IMG/VR virus record: IMGVR_UViG_3300030103_000715
Coordinates: 1-20,093 of that record
Reading direction: 5' to 3' (one strand)
Origin: a virus
Length of the DNA stretch: 20,093 nucleotides
The position numbers and the translations under genes are program-made. Shown here piece after piece: positions 7,771 to 15,904 of this stretch. The stretch's first letter is position 1; each line of letters starts with the position of its first letter. Under the pieces are notes generated by a model. It was not told the DNA's origin, did no database searches, and was given only the letters and a program-made list of their open reading frames with translations.

Positions 7771-9540
7771 ATGGCAGTATTTCGAAGTGATCAATCACAA
7801 TTGACATATGCAATGGAGTCGGCTCCGGGAGGAGACGTAGAATTAAATAATGGTAGTAGAAAAAGTAGCGGTACTTATGGACAGCTTACTGCAGATCATG
7901 CAGTGGGAACAGACCAATTAACTTATGATGGGTTAAATAATGGTCCATGGGTAGTTGGTGATATGGTTAGGATTGGAAACTTAAACCAATCAACTGATGC
8001 TGGTGCTTCAACTGCAGTGCCGTTTGAAATAAGAAGAATTGTACATGGATCAAATTTATCAGGTTCTGGAACTTTATTTTTAGATAGACCTTTAGGGTTT
8101 ACTCATGCTAATAACTCTTACATTGTAGAGATTGATGGTGCGAGCACAACTCAACAAGCTAAAATTATTACAGAAATACCGGGTGTTTATGAATCAGTGA
8201 ATGTGCCAGATATGGTGCCATCATATGAGCCAAGATATTTCTTAGGTGTAGGTCAAAAAAGAGACTGGACTAAGATGTATGTTGGAGCACAATCTTTTTC
8301 AGGATCATTACCGGGTTTTATACCACTAAACGGTAAACCATTTAGATGGGCAATAGGTAGCGTGTTTGATGTGCCGTCTGCGGTAGAATCTGCATCAACA
8401 GATATTGATGGTGCTGTAAGTAAAGGTGATATTTATGTAACACTAGATGGATCTCATGGCTATAGTGCTGGAGATTTTATATGTTTTTCTAATGGGGCTA
8501 CTCCTCAAGTAACAACATCAGTTAGTGATACAAGTCAAGAGATACAAAAAATTGCAGCATTTCCTAGTACAAATGTGGCTAGATTAGAAAAACCTTTTAG
8601 ATTTGATCACGCTGACGATTCAGCTGCTAGAGAAGTAAGTTCTGGTGCGACAGTAAAACACCACATTACAGAACAAGTATTGTTAGATACAATGTCATGG
8701 CACTTACACATGAGAGATAGTAGTGAAACTACAGCTAATGATTTTGATAGAAGATATGTAGGAGGGTTTGTAGACTCTTGTACAATATCAGCCGATGAAG
8801 GTGGTATGTTAATGGTAGGTTGGGACACGGTGACATTCCAAGATATGTTCCACAACCAACAAGAAGTATCACAACCGAATGTGAATCCGGGATCTGAAGC
8901 AGCTAACACGGGTATATTTAGTGGTGACTCAATGTCAGCAGGTATGCCTAGATTTACAGAAATGGCAGATATCTCTACTGGAGATATTACATTACCTACG
9001 AATGACCCATACTACTTCTCAGAAGGTTCTGTTAAGTTTATGGGACAAGAGTTTGCTAGAGTTAGAAACTTCAACCTAAGTATTTCTAATGGTAGTGAGC
9101 CAAGATATTACATCTCTCCAAGACACGGCAGACAAAGAGGACCGTCTGAAATACGAGAGGGTAGAAGATCATACAGTATGAGTTGTACTTTAGCATTACC
9201 AGACTCCGCAGCATCTGCGAGTGGGGTAGGTAGAAATACAGCTACTGAGTTCTTCAAACAATTACTTATGGAAGGTAACTATGGAAGTGGGATGGAAGGA
9301 TTTAATATAGAGATTACTTTTACTAGGGGAACTAATGATAGTTTTCAAATATTAATTCCAGCCGATTACACATCAGGTGACGAAACAACTGGTGCAGCAG
9401 TAGGATTAGGTGAAAATGGAGCTTTCTTAACAGGTGCTCCTCACCCAATTGGTGGAGACCCGATCTTACAAGTAGCTGCAGAGTTCAGCTGTAGAAACCT
9501 AAAAATGTTAGTAACAGATTCAGAGTACGTATACACATAG
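7771..9540 (+). CDS. Major tail tube protein, enlarged
   Basis: The 589-residue product has the strong TAGGAGGA site at 7757-7764 and a promoter candidate, as expected for a high-copy virion protein. Residues about 410-480 match the C-terminal pattern of tail tube proteins: SVKFMGQEFARVRNFNLSISN, then an Arg-rich segment, then EIREGRRSYSMSCTLAL. Residues 331-352 (GFVDSCTISADEGGMLMVGW) look like an earlier strand pair of the same fold. At nearly 600 residues it is two to three times the usual tube protein length. The extra mass includes two similar beta modules at residues about 44-122 and 213-292. The chaperone pair and tape-measure candidate follow immediately. A sheath is less likely because the tube-like end is followed directly by chaperone genes and no separate tube gene exists. 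Confidence 0.65.
   Translation: MAVFRSDQSQLTYAMESAPGGDVELNNGSRKSSGTYGQLTADHAVGTDQLTYDGLNNGPWVVGDMVRIGNLNQSTDAGASTAVPFEIRRIVHGSNLSGSGTLFLDRPLGFTHANNSYIVEIDGASTTQQAKIITEIPGVYESVNVPDMVPSYEPRYFLGVGQKRDWTKMYVGAQSFSGSLPGFIPLNGKPFRWAIGSVFDVPSAVESASTDIDGAVSKGDIYVTLDGSHGYSAGDFICFSNGATPQVTTSVSDTSQEIQKIAAFPSTNVARLEKPFRFDHADDSAAREVSSGATVKHHITEQVLLDTMSWHLHMRDSSETTANDFDRRYVGGFVDSCTISADEGGMLMVGWDTVTFQDMFHNQQEVSQPNVNPGSEAANTGIFSGDSMSAGMPRFTEMADISTGDITLPTNDPYYFSEGSVKFMGQEFARVRNFNLSISNGSEPRYYISPRHGRQRGPSEIREGRRSYSMSCTLALPDSAASASGVGRNTATEFFKQLLMEGNYGSGMEGFNIEITFTRGTNDSFQILIPADYTSGDETTGAAVGLGENGAFLTGAPHPIGGDPILQVAAEFSCRNLKMLVTDSEYVYT
7900..8136 (+). other. Beta module, copy A, in tail tube protein
   Basis: Residues 44-122 contain the pattern VGDMVRIG, FEIRRI, LFLDRPLGFTHA. 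The same order (GD-x-V-x-I, E-I-x-x-I, L-x-L-D-x-P-x-x-x-x-HA) recurs later in this protein and near the N-terminus of the hub, suggesting a shared domain. Confidence 0.55.
8407..8646 (+). other. Beta module, copy B, in tail tube protein
   Basis: Residues 213-292 contain AGDFICFSNG, QEIQKIAAF and ARLEKPFRFDHADD, in the same order and spacing style as copy A at residues 44-122. Identity is low, so this is a domain-level, not a recent, duplication. Confidence 0.5.
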
Positions 9541-9549
9541 GAGGTATAT

Positions 9550-9924
9550 ATGACAACAGAGCCAAGCGGAGCAGCAGTAAACTTTAACATAGATAAGTAC
9601 AAGATAAAAGGAGAAAATCAAAACTTTACCATAAAAATTAAAGATGATCAGTTTGATGTAACAGTTAAACCGATGACATGGAAAAGTAAAAATGATTTAG
9701 TAGCTAAGTGCATGACATTTGAGCCTACAGGTGCATCAAGTTTTGATAGCGGTAAGTATGTAAAGGAAGTGCTTAAATACATTATTGTGGACGCTCCATG
9801 GGGTAAAACCACAGATGAATTTTTAGACTCAATTAATAGTGAGTTGGGAGCAGCATTGGAGCAATTAGTTCCATCTGCTATGGACACTAACCTTTCGGAT
9901 GTAGATGTAATAAAAAAAGGGTAG
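9550..9924 (+). CDS. Tail assembly chaperone, gpG-like, upstream part
   Basis: The 124-residue product starts behind TAGGAGG that overlaps the tube gene stop. The first half is beta (NFTIKIKDDQFDVTVKPMTW), and the second half is helical (YVKEVLKYIIVDAPWG, then FLDSINSELGAALEQLV), matching the size and build of lambda gpG-type chaperones, which bind the tape measure and help the tube polymerise. It sits between the tube and tape-measure genes, the normal location. The last codons read ATA AAA AAA GGG TAG; the run of seven A at 9912-9918 is an in-frame slippery heptamer, and the -1 frame beyond it is open through 10172, so a fraction of ribosomes probably make a 207-residue fusion. Confidence 0.75.
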   Translation: MTTEPSGAAVNFNIDKYKIKGENQNFTIKIKDDQFDVTVKPMTWKSKNDLVAKCMTFEPTGASSFDSGKYVKEVLKYIIVDAPWGKTTDEFLDSINSELGAALEQLVPSAMDTNLSDVDVIKKG

Positions 9925-10000
9925 ATCGATTCCTGAGAGGGGTAAAAGTGTCAACGCGAGAATCGATCTTGTACACGCATTATGCGACTTTGTTGACGCT
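9912..10000 (+). promoter_or_regulatory. Programmed -1 frameshift site with stem-loop/pseudoknot
   Basis: The heptamer A AAA AAA (9912-9918) is in phase with the gpG-like frame. Four bases later, AGATCGATTC (9923-9932) pairs perfectly with GAATCGATCT (9960-9969), a 10-bp stem. Within its 27-base loop, AGTGTCAAC (9947-9955) can pair with GTTGACGCT (9992-10000), nine pairs including one G-U, crossing the first stem as an H-type pseudoknot. A small hairpin, CGCA/TGCG (9976-9986), lies between. After slipping, the frame continues RVDRFLRGVKVSTRE without a stop. Confidence 0.8.
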
Positions 10001-10172
10001 GCTGAGATTAGGACTTAATTACACTGAAGTTCAAGATATGTCAGAAGCTGAAATTAACATGATGTTAGCAACAAATGCGGCTATAGAAGAATTTAAAAAT
10101 GAAACTATGGAAAGGCAGAGTAAGATGGCACAAGCAAATAATGCTCATCCAACACCGCCTAGAGGATTTTAA
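9918..10172 (+). CDS. Tail assembly chaperone, gpT-like part, made by -1 frameshift
   Basis: This frame is entered by a -1 slip at 9912-9918 and adds 84 residues (RVDRFLRGVKVSTRE onward) to the gpG-like protein. The content is helical (SILYTHYATLLTLLRLGL, then MSEAEINMMLATNAAIEEFKNETMERQSK), as in gpT-type extensions that contact the tape measure. An independent start at GTG 9948, giving 74 residues, is possible, since GAGAGGGG at 9936-9943 lies five to six bases upstream; but the open frame through the stop region and the slippery site favour a fusion product. The next gene starts three bases after its stop. Confidence 0.7.
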   Translation, partial: RVDRFLRGVKVSTRESILYTHYATLLTLLRLGLNYTEVQDMSEAEINMMLATNAAIEEFKNETMERQSKMAQANNAHPTPPRGF

Positions 10173-10174
10173 AT

Positions 10175-11242
10175 ATGGCTGAAGAGTATTCGGTAAAAAT
10201 GATGTTGATGGCAGATGGGGTATCATCTGCTGCAGGTCAGGGTAATGTAGTACCCACTGTTGACCCTAATAATGAAATTAAAGACAATCAAGAGAGACAA
10301 ACGCGTAATAAATCATTAGCACAGTTAGTCGGTATTAACTTAGGTCTTGCGGCTTTACTTAGAAACTCACAGATTTTTACTAATACTACTGGTGCAATAT
10401 TTCAATTACTCGGTGGATTAATTGATATTGCGTTAGCTCCAATCGTGCCTTATTTAGCTACAGTATTAAGATACTTTGCTACACAATTTCCTGCTTATGC
10501 CGCCGCAATACAAGCAACCATGCCTAGAATAATCAACTTTGTTGCTGAACTAGTCATAGGTACTAGAAATTTACTTAGTGCATTTCTATCATTAGGCGGT
10601 TTTTCTTTTAGTTTATTTGATAAAGACGGTGTATCAAAAGATGGAAGATTAAGTTTAAGTGATATAGTTTCAGGTATTGGATCTGCATTATTGGGGGTTG
10701 GTCTTACTAATGCACTAACAGCTAACTCCATACCAATGGTATCAGCTGCCATGGGAAGTATGATGCAAGCTGGTGTGGGTAAAGCATTAGCCTTCTTTAG
10801 AGGAGTAGCGTTTTTTAACTTAGTCTATGTTGGATTAAACATGGGGGCAATTTTAAGAGAAAGCGGGGCTGAAGAAGCAGCTAAGCAAGCAACTAGGGCT
10901 ATACTTCAGGCTATCGTTGGAACCATAGCATTCCTTATAACTCCGGGGGGTCCATTAATTAAATTGTTGATCGCTGGAATGACATCATCTATAGTTAGTG
11001 AATTTTTTAGTAGTGCTTTAGATACTGTAGCTGACATGGTTGGTGGTGGAGTAGGAACTATTTTTAGTGGCGGTGGAGGAGGTGGTGCTCCTCAGATGTC
11101 TAGTGCTGGTGGTGGGGGTAGTTTACCGGGTTCAACAGAAGCGTATGCCGTTGATCTTATGCCTATTAATCCACAGGGAGATACAATTGAATCATTTAAC
11201 TATGATGTAAATAGTAGAATGGCAGGAGGTAATAAAGGATAA
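10175..11242 (+). CDS. Tape measure protein candidate, short
   Basis: The 355-residue product follows the chaperone pair and precedes the distal-tail and hub genes, which is the fixed position of the tape measure. It has several hydrophobic helices (around residues 45-95, 105-145, 165-230 and 245-275), including IDIALAPIVPYLATVLRYF, a pattern common in tape measure proteins that insert into the host membrane. Near the end is a Gly-rich linker (SGGGGGGAP). Typical tape measures are longer; at roughly 1.5 angstroms per residue this would give a tail near 50 nm, an inference from family knowledge. An alternative is a membrane-active tail protein with the real tape measure elsewhere, though no better candidate is in the window. 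Confidence 0.6.
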   Translation: MAEEYSVKMMLMADGVSSAAGQGNVVPTVDPNNEIKDNQERQTRNKSLAQLVGINLGLAALLRNSQIFTNTTGAIFQLLGGLIDIALAPIVPYLATVLRYFATQFPAYAAAIQATMPRIINFVAELVIGTRNLLSAFLSLGGFSFSLFDKDGVSKDGRLSLSDIVSGIGSALLGVGLTNALTANSIPMVSAAMGSMMQAGVGKALAFFRGVAFFNLVYVGLNMGAILRESGAEEAAKQATRAILQAIVGTIAFLITPGGPLIKLLIAGMTSSIVSEFFSSALDTVADMVGGGVGTIFSGGGGGGAPQMSSAGGGGSLPGSTEAYAVDLMPINPQGDTIESFNYDVNSRMAGGNKG

Positions 11243-11712
11243 TGGCTTTAGCAATATGTTTATATGACGGATTAAGTTCTAGTGAAAAAAGGTTTGCATT
11301 AAAAGCAGATTCTTTTTCTGTTAACTATGTAAAAACTCCAATACAAATTCCATTCCCAAGTGGAGCAGATCCAGAAATCATTGATTTAGGACAGATTAGA
11401 CCTACTGTTACAATAAGTGGAATAGTAGACACAACTGCACCGGGTTCTGCAGAAAATGTAACAGGTCCTGAAAGGAACAGTAGTCAAGTATATACTGTGC
11501 CTAGTAAAGAAGAATTAGAGGACTTTGTTACAACTAAATTTTATGATCCGTCAGACTCTAAATTAGAGATAATGGTATCCGATGGTTCAACCACACCTGT
11601 TGCAGCTTATGAGGGGGCTATATCTCAAGCAAGATTTGATGTCGCACCCGCCACAGAAGATAGATTTTCATTTACTATGGTGTTTGTAACTAAAAAAAGG
11701 AAAGATAGCTAA
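11242..11712 (+). CDS. Distal tail / baseplate tube-like protein candidate
   Basis: The 156-residue product starts at a TAATG junction with the tape-measure gene, behind GGAGG. It is beta-rich: DSFSVNYVKTPIQIPF, then IDLGQIRPTVTISGIV, a helix around SKEELEDFVTTKFY, then strands LEIMVSDG, YEGAISQARFDV and RFSFTMVFV. This resembles the tube-fold proteins (Dit N-terminal domain or T4 gp48/gp54-type) that start the tube and connect it to the hub. It ends KKRKDS and overlaps the hub start as TAATG, so tape measure, distal protein and hub form one coupled unit. The call rests on order and fold pattern, not a recognised signature. Confidence 0.55.
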   Translation: MALAICLYDGLSSSEKRFALKADSFSVNYVKTPIQIPFPSGADPEIIDLGQIRPTVTISGIVDTTAPGSAENVTGPERNSSQVYTVPSKEELEDFVTTKFYDPSDSKLEIMVSDGSTTPVAAYEGAISQARFDVAPATEDRFSFTMVFVTKKRKDS

Positions 11713-14700
11713 TGGCTAATCCAGTAGTATTTAGATCTTCAAAAATATATGTTTTTATAGAAGTGGCTAAAATTAATGATACAGGAGATATTACATCTGA
11801 TACATCAGCTACTAGTATGACTGTGGATGCTGGGCATAGATTAGAAGTAGGTATGGATGTATTAATTGAAAATGAAGCTGTAAAGGTTACAGCCATTAAC
11901 ACCAGCACTCATGCAATAACTATAAATAGAGCAGAGGTAACTCACACATCTGCAACCACTACGACTGCAGCAACCCATGCTAATGATACACCTATATTTG
12001 CATGGTCTGAATTAAAAGATAGTAATGGCACGTCTCTAGTACAGTCTTTTTCTATAATAGATGACCTATATAAACCAAGAGTGCTACAAATGTCTATTGG
12101 AAACCCATTTAGCGGTGCTATAACTTCATCAGGGATTTTAGAAGGCATTATAAAACAATCTGTTCCCGTAAAGGTAGAGGAAGGTGAAAATCATAGCATA
12201 CTATTTACGGGCAAAATAAGCAGTGTAACTAGACAACAAAGCGGTGGTGAGGGTAACACCATGAAAGTAACTGCTTATGATAATTTGTTTGAATTAGCTA
12301 GAACAAAAATGGGGGGTAATTTTAGCACCATAGAGATAAAAGATGCTGATGGAAACAATTCTGATTTAGGATCTACTAAAACTCCAGCAACAGCGATTAA
12401 ATTTTTAACTAAAAAATTTCAATTTGGAGGTTCAGGGTCTACTACAGATGGTGAAGAAATTAATACCACGACTACTGAACCTGTGAGTGGTAGTGAAGCT
12501 AGATTTCAAGCCAGTTTAGATTCATTCCAAAATACAAATAGAAATGCTAAAGTTACTTTTGGATCATCTGATATAACCGCTTTGTACGGAATAAAAAGAT
12601 TAGCCTCTGGAGATAGAATTGCAAAAGATAAATTTGGTTATGTCTTTTATAATGACCCTAATATTACAAGTTTTTCTACTGCTAGCAACCCCGCTCAAAT
12701 GCTTAATTATTATCCAGCAGGTTTTATGCCTGCTCAAGATCAAAGTAGTATAGCAGACGGCTCCAGATCCCCTGCAATAGGGAACGTGCAATTCCATAAC
12801 TACGGCACTAGTAATACAAATATTGATGGGCATACTAGACAAATAAAACCGGGGGCAGCTTTTGATTTAATAAAAAGTGAAAATTTAACTGAAATACTAG
12901 CTAGATTTAGAGACCCTATTTCAGGTACTATGCGAGAAACTACTTTTGAATTATTTCATTTTAAAGCACAAAGTGTATCATCAAGTGTAGCTGGTTTATA
13001 TGGAGGTAAAGCTATATTAAATGATCCATTTGATGTTACCGGGACATTTGGAGTAGAAGATGTTAACAGAACATCTGTTGCAGATCGTAGTAGTCATGCG
13101 ACTAGACTTGTTGATTCTAGTAATAATATAATAGGATATATACAATTTATCGGTGAGAGCACCTCTAGCATTTCAAATGGGTCGGGAGTGCTTATATTAA
13201 GTGGTTCTGATATAGCGACTGCGGGTGTAGGTGTCACGGCGGGGCAACAATTATTTATTAATACTGCAAGTTCTGGAAACAGTATAACTTTATGTGATAA
13301 TGAAGACCCCGAAGCTGAGTTTCCATTTAGAGCACAGGCTGTAACTAAAGAAAGACAAGTTGCAAGAATGGATTTTGGAACTAATGTAAGTGCTAATGAC
13401 ATTAGAGCTGCAATTGCATCTAAGTTTGCCCAAAAATCTAGAAGTAAAATTAGGGGCAGGTTTCAAGTAGACGGTAAATATCCTTTTAGCACATTAGATA
13501 TTCAACTTACAGGAGATGATTCTATAACAACAAGTTCTGCAGGAGAAAAAACAAAAGTAGTTATTACAGATAACAGCATGCAAGGCGGTAGTGTTACCAC
13601 TGCAATTGCATTATTTGATAATTCAGGAAGTGGTGTAACTTCGTTTTCTGGATTTGGATTGAGAGCAGGGCATACTATAAATAAGTTAACAGCTCAGAAT
13701 GGCACTTCTAGTGACACTTACGGATATTTAGAAAAAGTAACTGCAAAAGAGTTAACATTTTTAGTCACAACAGGGAGTTTTTCTACAAATGATTTTATTA
13801 GAGTGAATGTTCCATTAAGAGTTGGATTTAATACAGAGGTACAGTCATTGCCGCATAACATTGGTACTTCAGGTGGTAGAGTAGGTGGGTCAACAATGAT
13901 CACATCAATAGAATATACAGAAACAGGTAGTAGAGCATACACTCATATTGAGACTATATCATATAATACTACCCGAACACAGGATATTATTTCTCAAGCT
14001 AAACCAGATTTAGGCGATTTAGATGAACAAACTGATGACGATTATGGTGGACTTCCATATGGATTTGAATCCGCCCCACATTTTACAGGCACATTTCGTG
14101 CTGGGGATACTGCCGGCAATGATAAAGATAAAGCAATTAGTTATACTAGTGGAAGTTTATATATAAAGGGACAAGTGTTTTCAATAGCAGCTGACGATAG
14201 TGATAATGGATCTGTAGGGCTGGGCACAACAGTAAATATAACAGATGCTGATGGAGACGGCGAACCAAACAGTAGAGTTATCCTTTACTTTGAACCAGCA
14301 CGTTCTACTACAAAATTTATTATTGAAAATGAAGATACTTTTGAAGCAAGAAATGCCGCAGAGGGTAGAGTAGCTGCAGGTAATTATAGAGCTCCGGTGG
14401 GTATAAGTAGAATTAAATTAGGTGTGATTGTCGGATCTACTATAGGTAGTACAGCTGGGAGAGTAACATTAACCACAGCAAACGGATTTACATACGGAAG
14501 GGCTAATGATTCTGATGTAAATGGAACTAGTGGTGATAGTGGTGCAAAAACCATGCCATCAACAGGTGCAAATGATATAGGTCCAGTAATAAATAACTTT
14601 TGGGTGCCCGCTAAAGATAATAGTTATGACTTAGGATTAACTGGTAATGCATGGAGAAACATTTTTCATGAAGGTAGCATAACAGATACGTCAGACGCGG

Positions 14701-14999
14701 CAGTTAAAGATAACATTGAACCAATACAGTTAGGGTTGGACTTTGTTAATGAATTAGAACCAGTGCAATATAATAAAAAAACAAACCCAGATAAATTAGA
14801 TGTAGGGGTAACAGCCCAAGATGTTAAAGATGCAATCGAAAAAGCAGGTTTAGATCCTAAAGAGGGTACTATTGTACATGAAATAGACACTGATCATCAT
14901 ATGAGATTAGATTATACAAAGTTAATCGCACCCATGTTAAAAGCCATACAAGAACTGTCTGATGAAATAGATAAACTAAAAAATGAAGGCGAAGAATAA
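11712..14999 (+). CDS. Baseplate hub / central tail fibre with C-terminal S74 self-cleaving chaperone
   Basis: The 1095-residue product appears to fuse a hub and a fibre. Residues about 24-96 are a beta module like those in the tube protein. Residues about 100-200 contain SFSIIDDLYKPRVLQMSIG and ILFTGKISSV followed by MKVTAYDNLFELA, the pattern of gp27/gpD-type hubs. Hub-like sequence continues to around 760 (RVGGSTMITSIEY). Residues about 790-980 are a fibre-like beta region, and the end is a peptidase S74 chaperone: TSDAAVKDNIEPIQLG, then a helical C-terminus. The Ser994/Lys999 pair has the spacing of the Ser/Lys dyad in endosialidase chaperones, so cleavage just before Ser994 would release about 102 residues. 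The end overlaps the next gene by 17 bases. Confidence 0.75.
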   Translation: MANPVVFRSSKIYVFIEVAKINDTGDITSDTSATSMTVDAGHRLEVGMDVLIENEAVKVTAINTSTHAITINRAEVTHTSATTTTAATHANDTPIFAWSELKDSNGTSLVQSFSIIDDLYKPRVLQMSIGNPFSGAITSSGILEGIIKQSVPVKVEEGENHSILFTGKISSVTRQQSGGEGNTMKVTAYDNLFELARTKMGGNFSTIEIKDADGNNSDLGSTKTPATAIKFLTKKFQFGGSGSTTDGEEINTTTTEPVSGSEARFQASLDSFQNTNRNAKVTFGSSDITALYGIKRLASGDRIAKDKFGYVFYNDPNITSFSTASNPAQMLNYYPAGFMPAQDQSSIADGSRSPAIGNVQFHNYGTSNTNIDGHTRQIKPGAAFDLIKSENLTEILARFRDPISGTMRETTFELFHFKAQSVSSSVAGLYGGKAILNDPFDVTGTFGVEDVNRTSVADRSSHATRLVDSSNNIIGYIQFIGESTSSISNGSGVLILSGSDIATAGVGVTAGQQLFINTASSGNSITLCDNEDPEAEFPFRAQAVTKERQVARMDFGTNVSANDIRAAIASKFAQKSRSKIRGRFQVDGKYPFSTLDIQLTGDDSITTSSAGEKTKVVITDNSMQGGSVTTAIALFDNSGSGVTSFSGFGLRAGHTINKLTAQNGTSSDTYGYLEKVTAKELTFLVTTGSFSTNDFIRVNVPLRVGFNTEVQSLPHNIGTSGGRVGGSTMITSIEYTETGSRAYTHIETISYNTTRTQDIISQAKPDLGDLDEQTDDDYGGLPYGFESAPHFTGTFRAGDTAGNDKDKAISYTSGSLYIKGQVFSIAADDSDNGSVGLGTTVNITDADGDGEPNSRVILYFEPARSTTKFIIENEDTFEARNAAEGRVAAGNYRAPVGISRIKLGVIVGSTIGSTAGRVTLTTANGFTYGRANDSDVNGTSGDSGAKTMPSTGANDIGPVINNFWVPAKDNSYDLGLTGNAWRNIFHEGSITDTSDAAVKDNIEPIQLGLDFVNELEPVQYNKKTNPDKLDVGVTAQDVKDAIEKAGLDPKEGTIVHEIDTDHHMRLDYTKLIAPMLKAIQELSDEIDKLKNEGEE
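11781..11999 (+). other. Beta module, third copy, in hub N-terminus
   Basis: Residues 24-96 of the hub contain LEVGMDVLIENEAVKVTAI, ITINRAEVTH and ATHANDT. The order resembles the two modules in the tail tube protein (G-x-x-V-x-I, then E-x-x-x-V/I, then a strand ending in H-A). Confidence 0.5.
14691..14996 (+). other. Peptidase S74 intramolecular chaperone domain
   Basis: Residues 994-1095 start SDAAVKDNIEPI and contain LDFVNELEPVQY and VGVTAQDVKDAIE, which are the conserved landmarks of S74 chaperones of endosialidases and fibres. Ser994 and Lys999 are placed like the catalytic dyad. The domain helps a fibre trimerise and then cuts itself off. Confidence 0.85.
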
Positions 15000-15369
15000 A
15001 GTAGTTAGACTGCGTAAAAACAACCCCTTCATGTCTATATCTGAAATCGCAAGACAAGTAGGGATAGATGTATCGTATGCACGCAGAGTTTTAATTAAAA
15101 ATAATCTACCAACAAAGGTCTCTAAACCTAAACCTGTGGTATACTGTAAAGTATGTAGAGAGATAACTACGGACCGTGGCGGAATACACAAAGATAAGTG
15201 TAGATTCAAATGGAATAGAATTAAATTAACATGTTATTTCTGCAGAGTGCCTTTTTACAGAAGTCGTAAAAGAGTTATGCAGGGGTATAGATTAAAATTA
15301 AAAAATGTTTATTGCACACAACCGTGTTATCAAGCGTACAGAAAGTATAAAAAAAATGGAAATCAATGA
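14983..15369 (+). CDS. Helix-turn-helix plus double zinc-finger regulator candidate
   Basis: The 128-residue product is very basic. Residues 17-41 (MSISEIARQVGIDVSYARRVL) form a clear helix-turn-helix. Two probable zinc sites follow: C55-x2-C58 with H69-x3-C73, and C84-x2-C87 with C111-x3-C115. Together these suggest a DNA-binding protein. It lies between the late tail genes and the replication genes, next to a sigma-like gene, so it is a candidate transcription regulator; an HNH-free recombination or packaging factor cannot be excluded. The start overlaps the hub gene by 17 bases and lacks a strong ribosome-binding site, so coupling is likely. Confidence 0.65.
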   Translation: MKAKNKVVRLRKNNPFMSISEIARQVGIDVSYARRVLIKNNLPTKVSKPKPVVYCKVCREITTDRGGIHKDKCRFKWNRIKLTCYFCRVPFYRSRKRVMQGYRLKLKNVYCTQPCYQAYRKYKKNGNQ

Positions 15370-15904
15370 CGATTTAATATTGCAATGGGAACCTAAGATA
15401 AATAAAATGTTATCTAACATTTACATTCAAGGATATGATCGAGATGATCTTGCCCAAGAACTTAGGTTGATAGTTTTAAAAGCTGCAAAACTATATAAAC
15501 CAAATAGAAACGCAATATTTCATACTTATTTACACACAGCTATGGTAAATAGATTAAAAACGCTGTGGATGCAAGCTAGTAAAAAACTTCATGGACAAAG
15601 TTTAGATGCTACAACAAGTGACTCTGATGGAGAAAATAGTTTTAAATTAAGTGACTTTGTAAAACAGTTAGATGAAAACTTAGATGAAGTAGAATTTATA
15701 GATTATTTAGAGTCTTTAGATTTAGATGACGGTGAAAAACAATTTTTAAAAGACAAATTTATGAACAGGACTATGAAGGACATAGAACAAAACTTAAAAC
15801 AATTAACAAAAGTAAACACTGTCAATGGTGAAGAAAGTGTGGTAAACTACTCCATATACAAAGTAAAAAAATCTTTGAGAAACAAAATTAACGAAGAGAA
15901 ATAG
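15356..15904 (+). CDS. Sigma-factor-like protein
   Basis: Starting at ATG 15356 gives 182 residues. Residues about 8-78 match sigma-70 region 2: a helix containing YDRDDLAQELRLIVLKAA, then the segment FHTYLHTAMVNRLKTLWMQA, the equivalents of the core-binding and -10-contacting helices. Residues about 114-178 (EFIDYLESLDLDDGEKQFL, then MNRTMKDIEQNL) would fit a shortened region 4. No region 1 or 3 is seen, as in small phage and ECF-type sigma factors. An upstream ATG at 15305 is in frame but would overlap the previous gene by 65 bases, so 15356 (14-base overlap) is preferred. A T4 gp55-like late role is possible but not shown. Confidence 0.65.
   Translation: MEINDDLILQWEPKINKMLSNIYIQGYDRDDLAQELRLIVLKAAKLYKPNRNAIFHTYLHTAMVNRLKTLWMQASKKLHGQSLDATTSDSDGENSFKLSDFVKQLDENLDEVEFIDYLESLDLDDGEKQFLKDKFMNRTMKDIEQNLKQLTKVNTVNGEESVVNYSIYKVKKSLRNKINEEK

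Follow-up and report, generated by a model that had tools for sequence, protein, structure and literature searches.

A putative lambda-type −1 frameshift signal with a predicted pseudoknot in the tail chaperone gene of an uncharacterised phage lineage

In phage lambda, the gene that follows the tail tube gene has a short G ORF whose product has a chaperone-like fold; it ends at a stop soon past the shift site and is extended in the −1 frame by T (gpG/gpGT; Xu, Hendrix and Duda 2004; reviewed in PMC5009743). Among long-tailed phages, G-T frameshifting at a low level is a widely conserved feature; it has also been proposed in haloviruses, with −1 shifts suggested for HVTV-1 and the HCTVs (PMC5009743). 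Other bacterial −1 signals, those of dnaX and the IS3-family elements, place a stimulatory hairpin or pseudoknot a few bases downstream of an A-rich heptamer. Lambda itself shifts on GGGAAAG, for which we know of no downstream stimulator, and to our knowledge the RNA stimulators of the widespread tail chaperone frameshifting have rarely been resolved. Bacterial ribosomes are known to respond to pseudoknot stimulators (PMC5009743), apical loop-internal loop pseudoknots are listed as bacterial stimulators (Mazauric 2008, as cited in PMC4066793), and prokaryotic −1 frameshift signals do not all show a stimulatory structure (PMC4066793). Reporter tests gave 10% frameshifting for an A_AAA_AAA cassette and 6-7% for chaperone cassettes (PMC3711429).

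We analysed a 20,093-base virus fragment (IMG/VR record IMGVR_UViG_3300030103_000715, positions 1 to 20,093; hereafter the window). As judged from comparative sequence analysis, the window, which comes from an uncharacterised phage lineage, is highly likely to carry a −1 frameshift of the lambda gpG/gpGT type whose stimulator is a stem-loop/H-type pseudoknot. The locus resembles lambda in the predicted chaperone-like fold, the gene position after the tail tube, the short G ORF, the −1 extension T and the stop soon past the shift site, and differs in its heptamer, A AAA AAA, and its covarying stem/pseudoknot. With dnaX and the IS3-family signals it shares the A-rich heptamer and a structure a few bases downstream; it differs in the gene concerned and in a crossing strand further downstream, predicted to give an H-type pseudoknot with long loops. 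The frameshift trick is known in tailed phages; what is new is the lineage, with unusually good RNA-structure evidence. No paper on this lineage was found in the open-access literature, though one may still exist. The features are as follows.

7771-9540, + strand: tail tube protein, just upstream of G (Pfam PF18906 Phage_tube_2, E 2.1e-11)
9550-9924, + strand: zero-frame ORF of 124 aa, predicted G-type tail assembly chaperone (sequence, fold match)
9912-9918, + strand: putative slippery heptamer A AAA AAA, in phase (sequence; invariant in 19/19 distinct homologues)
9918-10172, + strand: putative T-type −1 frame extension, 84 aa plus stop (third-position-biased change from the slip site on)
9923-9932, + strand: stem 1, 5' arm (compensatory changes)
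9947-9956, + strand: predicted stem 2, 5' arm, within the stem 1 loop and overlapping GTG 9948 (synonymous suppression, pair retention)
9960-9969, + strand: stem 1, 3' arm (compensatory changes)
9991-10000, + strand: predicted stem 2, 3' arm (Leu as TTG in 16/16, synonymous suppression)
10175-11242, + strand: 355-aa ORF in tape-measure position (position and HHTV-2 synteny only)

The G/T junction and its relatives

Direct reading of the sequence gives ATA AAA AAA GGG TAG as the 3' end of the ORF at 9550-9924, with A AAA AAA (9912-9918) forming an X XXY YYZ heptamer in phase for tandem −1 slippage and the zero-frame TAG at 9922-9924. From 9918, the −1 frame (RVDRFLRG...) runs for 84 codons to a stop at 10170-10172, and the predicted GT fusion is about 207 aa long. 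An earlier note on this DNA had described the in-phase heptamer, a TAG two codons past it, a −1 frame open to 10172, a perfect 10-bp inverted repeat (9923-9932 with 9960-9969) and a pairing that crosses it (9947-9955 with 9992-10000); each of these holds on re-reading, the repeat being an exact reverse complement.

Relatives in IMG/VR were found with the G protein, with the T protein and with a degenerate junction pattern; 26 loci and the window yielded 19 distinct element sequences. Because the pattern search presupposes A AAA AAA and the RIDRF codons, only the loci from the protein-based searches count as independent evidence for the heptamer; L054, L056, L060 and L069, the four that the pattern added, do not. 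Seven A, a zero-frame TAG two codons later and the −1 extension are present in all 19 distinct versions. Across 9919-9947, which spans the slip site to the first usable start codon (no earlier start is common to the relatives), pairwise differences among the 19 fall at −1 frame codon positions 1/2/3 as 267/80/493; this concentration on third positions makes the stretch look translated in the −1 frame, even though ribosomes in the zero frame would terminate immediately. Upstream of GTG 9948, the same frame encodes RIDRFLRG, conserved among homologues. Within the stretch examined, synonymous change is lowest at 9904-9923, the codons just before and at the heptamer (0.15 of expectation).

Relatives with about 40-60% identity came from a broader chaperone profile search, and most of them keep A AAA AAA. 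The others carry U UUA AAA (L109, L110), A AAU UUA (L099, L101) or A AAA AAC (L102), in each case in phase and with T continuing in the −1 frame; exchange of one X XXY YYZ heptamer for another is what tandem −1 slippage predicts. The earlier note had placed a frameshift in a tail chaperone gene, and this is strongly supported by the invariant heptamer and stop, the codon-periodic −1 change ahead of any usable start codon, and the swapped heptamers. Stems of 9-11 bp lie at +7/8 to +52/53 in L091, L097, L100 and L102, beating nearly all recodings, and strong short hairpins are present in L098 and L099; no significant stem 1 was found in L078, L086, L096, L103, L105, L107 or L110. Loss of both stems with the slippery run kept, which the earlier note had taken to speak against its proposal, occurs in the distant L078, L096 and L107 and not within the clade. 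The stimulator is thus present in some relatives and missing from others, with the slip site retained, and a frameshift chaperone does not always need one.

Three further observations concern the junction. At 9907-9911, GTA (16/16 in the main clade) and then RTA precede the heptamer with zero synonymous change, which may reflect an influence of the E site or of sequence context on slippage. In nine relatives (L018, L019, L020, L023, L024, L025, L029, L030 and L032), a GAGG whose end lies exactly 10 nt ahead of A AAA AAA recalls the Shine-Dalgarno stimulator of dnaX; the Glu codon at this site is GAG in 9/10, versus 30% in the family, and the window has no GAGG. In L107 and L108 the G/T junction has 9 A, not 7, at most about 25 nt ahead of the G stop; the zero-frame stop comes later, no stem is significant, and the site could work by transcriptional slippage.

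Stem 1, stem 2 and the predicted pseudoknot

Chance pairing was assessed by scoring the best contiguous stem starting 2-10 bases past the heptamer, and the best crossing stem pair, against synonymous recodings of the −1 frame drawn with family codons. Scores were nearest-neighbour stacking energies; because loop costs are left out, they serve as a comparison and give no stability estimate. In the window, stem 1 was equalled in 33/5000 recodings and the crossing stem pair in 0/5000, and for each of the other 18 distinct homologues the observed pair was reached in 0/150. The nested single-sequence minimum of the window (−22.6 kcal/mol, z −0.45) contains stem 2 and lacks stem 1, and the best nested fold with stem 1 is calculated to be less stable (−18.3 versus −22.6). 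Since the nested minimum lacks stem 1, the single-sequence fold alone would not support the claim.

Stem 1 is a perfect 10-bp helix of 9923-9932 (AGATCGATTC) with 9960-9969, extended to 12-13 bp in many relatives. Standard pairs occupy 96.3% of its cells in the 19-sequence alignment, in which pair 9926/9966 is U-A in 12 sequences and C-G in 7, with no intermediates, and pair 9929/9963 occurs as A-U, G-U, U-G and C-G. A tree inferred from sequence outside the element places two changes on each side of 9926/9966, and six on the 5' side and two on the 3' side of 9929/9963. None of 500 shuffles reached the whole-structure covariation score or the number of cells with both sides changed, the observed structure paired far better than all slid registers, and RNAalifold recovered stem 1 blindly; simpler counts of pairs and pair types showed no clear excess over shuffles. 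Synonymous change is not suppressed at stem 1 wobble positions (p 0.25), which change but compensate. Stem 1 is very likely conserved as an RNA structure.

The nominal spacer between heptamer and stem 1 is 4 nt (9919-9922), which the earlier note had judged slightly short, the usual range being 5-8 nt (PMC4066793). That length stands as counted, but within stem 1 the basal A-U pair 9923/9969 is retained least often (15/19), so the working spacer is probably 5-7 nt, within the normal range.

In stem 2, 9947-9955 (AGTGTCAAC) pairs with 9992-10000 (GTTGACGCT) through eight Watson-Crick pairs and one G-U, and 9956/9991 can add one further G-U. The stems cross because stem 2 begins inside the stem 1 loop and ends beyond stem 1; the resulting H-type pseudoknot would have long loops of 14, 3-4 and 21-22 nt. 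Across the 16-sequence main clade, 94.4% of stem 2 cells are paired (L025 has a G-G mismatch), and variation is one-sided, G-C to G-U and U-A to U-G, with no clean double compensation among the 16 and no excess of further pair types over shuffles in the main-clade alignment. Codons with their third base in stem 2 show a synonymous observed/expected ratio of 0.26 (p 0.00085, by column permutation, with relatedness modelled only through pairwise expectation), and suppression over the whole element is weak (p 0.09). The stem 2 codons GTG and TTG are fixed in 16/16, and TCA is used in all 15 sequences that encode Ser there. In the sister clade L035/L036/L056, Val-Ser-Thr is encoded as GTC AGT ACA and the 3' partner of stem 2 is gone; a 4-bp GGUC/GACC pairing, the only alternative found, is tentatively proposed as its replacement. 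On these alignments, the predicted stem 2 pseudoknot is specific to the main clade and lost or remodelled in one sister clade.

The earlier note had proposed a stimulatory pseudoknot and looked to homologues for covariation in both stems. Compensatory pairs bear this out strongly for stem 1, whereas stem 2, without clean double compensation, is supported less directly, by synonymous suppression and wobble changes; overall, we regard the pseudoknot as likely.

Within pseudoknot loop 3, a small hairpin (CGCA-NNN-TGCG, 9976-9986) also occurs in L027, L028, L029, L034 and L054 and is absent from L018 and L025. A promoter at the conserved TTGAC in stem 2 was considered as a cause of conservation, and a site scan was negative there. 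No known Rfam family matched above its gathering score (best chance match, E 0.54).

Gene identity, tail module and host

The AlphaFold model of the G protein (29 sequences, mean pLDDT 81) matched annotated tail assembly chaperones in BFVD at E 2.9e-5 to 1.4e-3, among them those of Bacillus phage Gemini (2.9e-5), Haloarcula virus HHTV-2 (5.3e-5) and Bacillus phage 019DV002 (4.8e-4); such chaperones make up many of the best-ranked named BFVD matches. The top PDB match, YqbN, is weak (E 0.23); we take YqbN to be an XkdN-type protein, of the same family as the sub-threshold Pfam match Phage_TAC_5 (PF08890). Relative L056 matches phrog_25860 at 5.7e-4. Searches of PHROGs and Pfam with the window's own G, T and 355-aa proteins gave no match at 0.001, and searches of annotated phages with its G and T proteins gave none; the G of a diverged relative reaches HHTV-2, weakly. 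No significant fold match was found for the T protein model. By predicted fold, the G protein is thus related to known tail assembly chaperones.

Haloarchaeal tailed viruses (HHTV-2, HVTV-1 and HCTV-1/2/5) are the best named relatives by tail tube sequence and, through a weak match, by chaperone sequence, and they are among the best by fold and gene order. The HHTV-2 order is tube, chaperone, chaperone, tape measure; by position and this synteny only, the 355-aa ORF after T is a candidate tape measure protein. Unlike these viruses, the window encodes a sigma-70 region 2 protein (15353-15901; Pfam E 2.1e-8) adjoining DnaB, DnaG-like primase and PolA genes. The presence of these genes speaks for a bacterial host even though tail tube and chaperone are halovirus-like. 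A scan of genome contigs found no relatives and hence no prophage link to a host. At 11712-14999, the window also encodes a 1095-aa tail fibre-like protein with a C-terminal Peptidase_S74 (endosialidase chaperone) domain.

Proposed mechanism and alternatives

Most ribosomes would read ATA AAA AAA GGG TAG and stop, releasing the 124-aa G protein. A minority would pause with two Lys-tRNAs on AAA AAA and the ribosome entry at stem 1 (9923-9932/9960-9969), which the crossing stem 2 (9947-9956/9991-10000) would brace. These ribosomes would move back by one base on A AAA AAA and read on as AGG GTA GAT..., so that the 84-aa T domain is added and a GT fusion of about 207 aa results. If lambda is a guide, G would coat the tape measure protein and T would recruit tail tube subunits. 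A small share of ribosomes would thus very probably shift frame here, giving a second, longer tail-building helper protein.

The stem 1 hairpin might stimulate the shift alone, with stem 2 conserved by protein or other sequence constraint. The clean covariation in stem 1, which persists where stem 2 is lost, fits this reading, as do the comparably placed stems (about +7 to +53) in L091, L097, L100 and L102; it is nonetheless unlikely given the strong synonymous suppression at stem 2 wobble positions and the use of other codons for the same amino acids where the stem 2 partner is absent. Alternatively, ribosomes could initiate internally at GTG 9948 and produce T on its own, leaving the frameshift unneeded. 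A good Shine-Dalgarno-like sequence, GAGAGGGG (about 9935-9942), lies ahead of this GTG in the window, and about half of the homologues have a similar arrangement, but the −1 frame is under coding constraint already upstream of the GTG, L027, L028 and L054 no longer have the Shine-Dalgarno-like sequence, the GTG is GTC in L035, L036 and L056, and the invariant heptamer and stop are left unexplained. Such initiation is very improbable as a replacement for frameshifting, and may occur as a source of an extra product. A reading that joins the two, in which stem 2 sequesters GTG 9948 behind the Shine-Dalgarno-like sequence in the stem 1 loop, would make the pseudoknot both stimulate the −1 shift and hold back a T-only product in the window's subclade; we think this improbable.

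RNA polymerase rather than the ribosome might slip on the A run, giving mRNAs one base longer or shorter. Poly-A runs can cause RNA polymerase slippage, and L107 and L108 have the nine A that is the usual run length. The run is exactly 7 A in 19/19, and distant relatives carry non-homopolymer heptamers, which together make transcriptional slippage very unlikely; nor does it predict a conserved downstream RNA stem. The usual A run in bacterial transcriptional slippage is 9 (PMC5009743).

With ribosomal −1 frameshifting as the preferred reading, the two ORFs belong in one joined frameshift product in annotation. The lineage offers divergent natural variants of one heptamer: with both stems, with a remodelled stem 2 beside stem 1, and with no evident stem; completed by the relatives in which the heptamer itself is replaced, this set would allow a direct test of how RNA structure tunes the ratio of G to GT.
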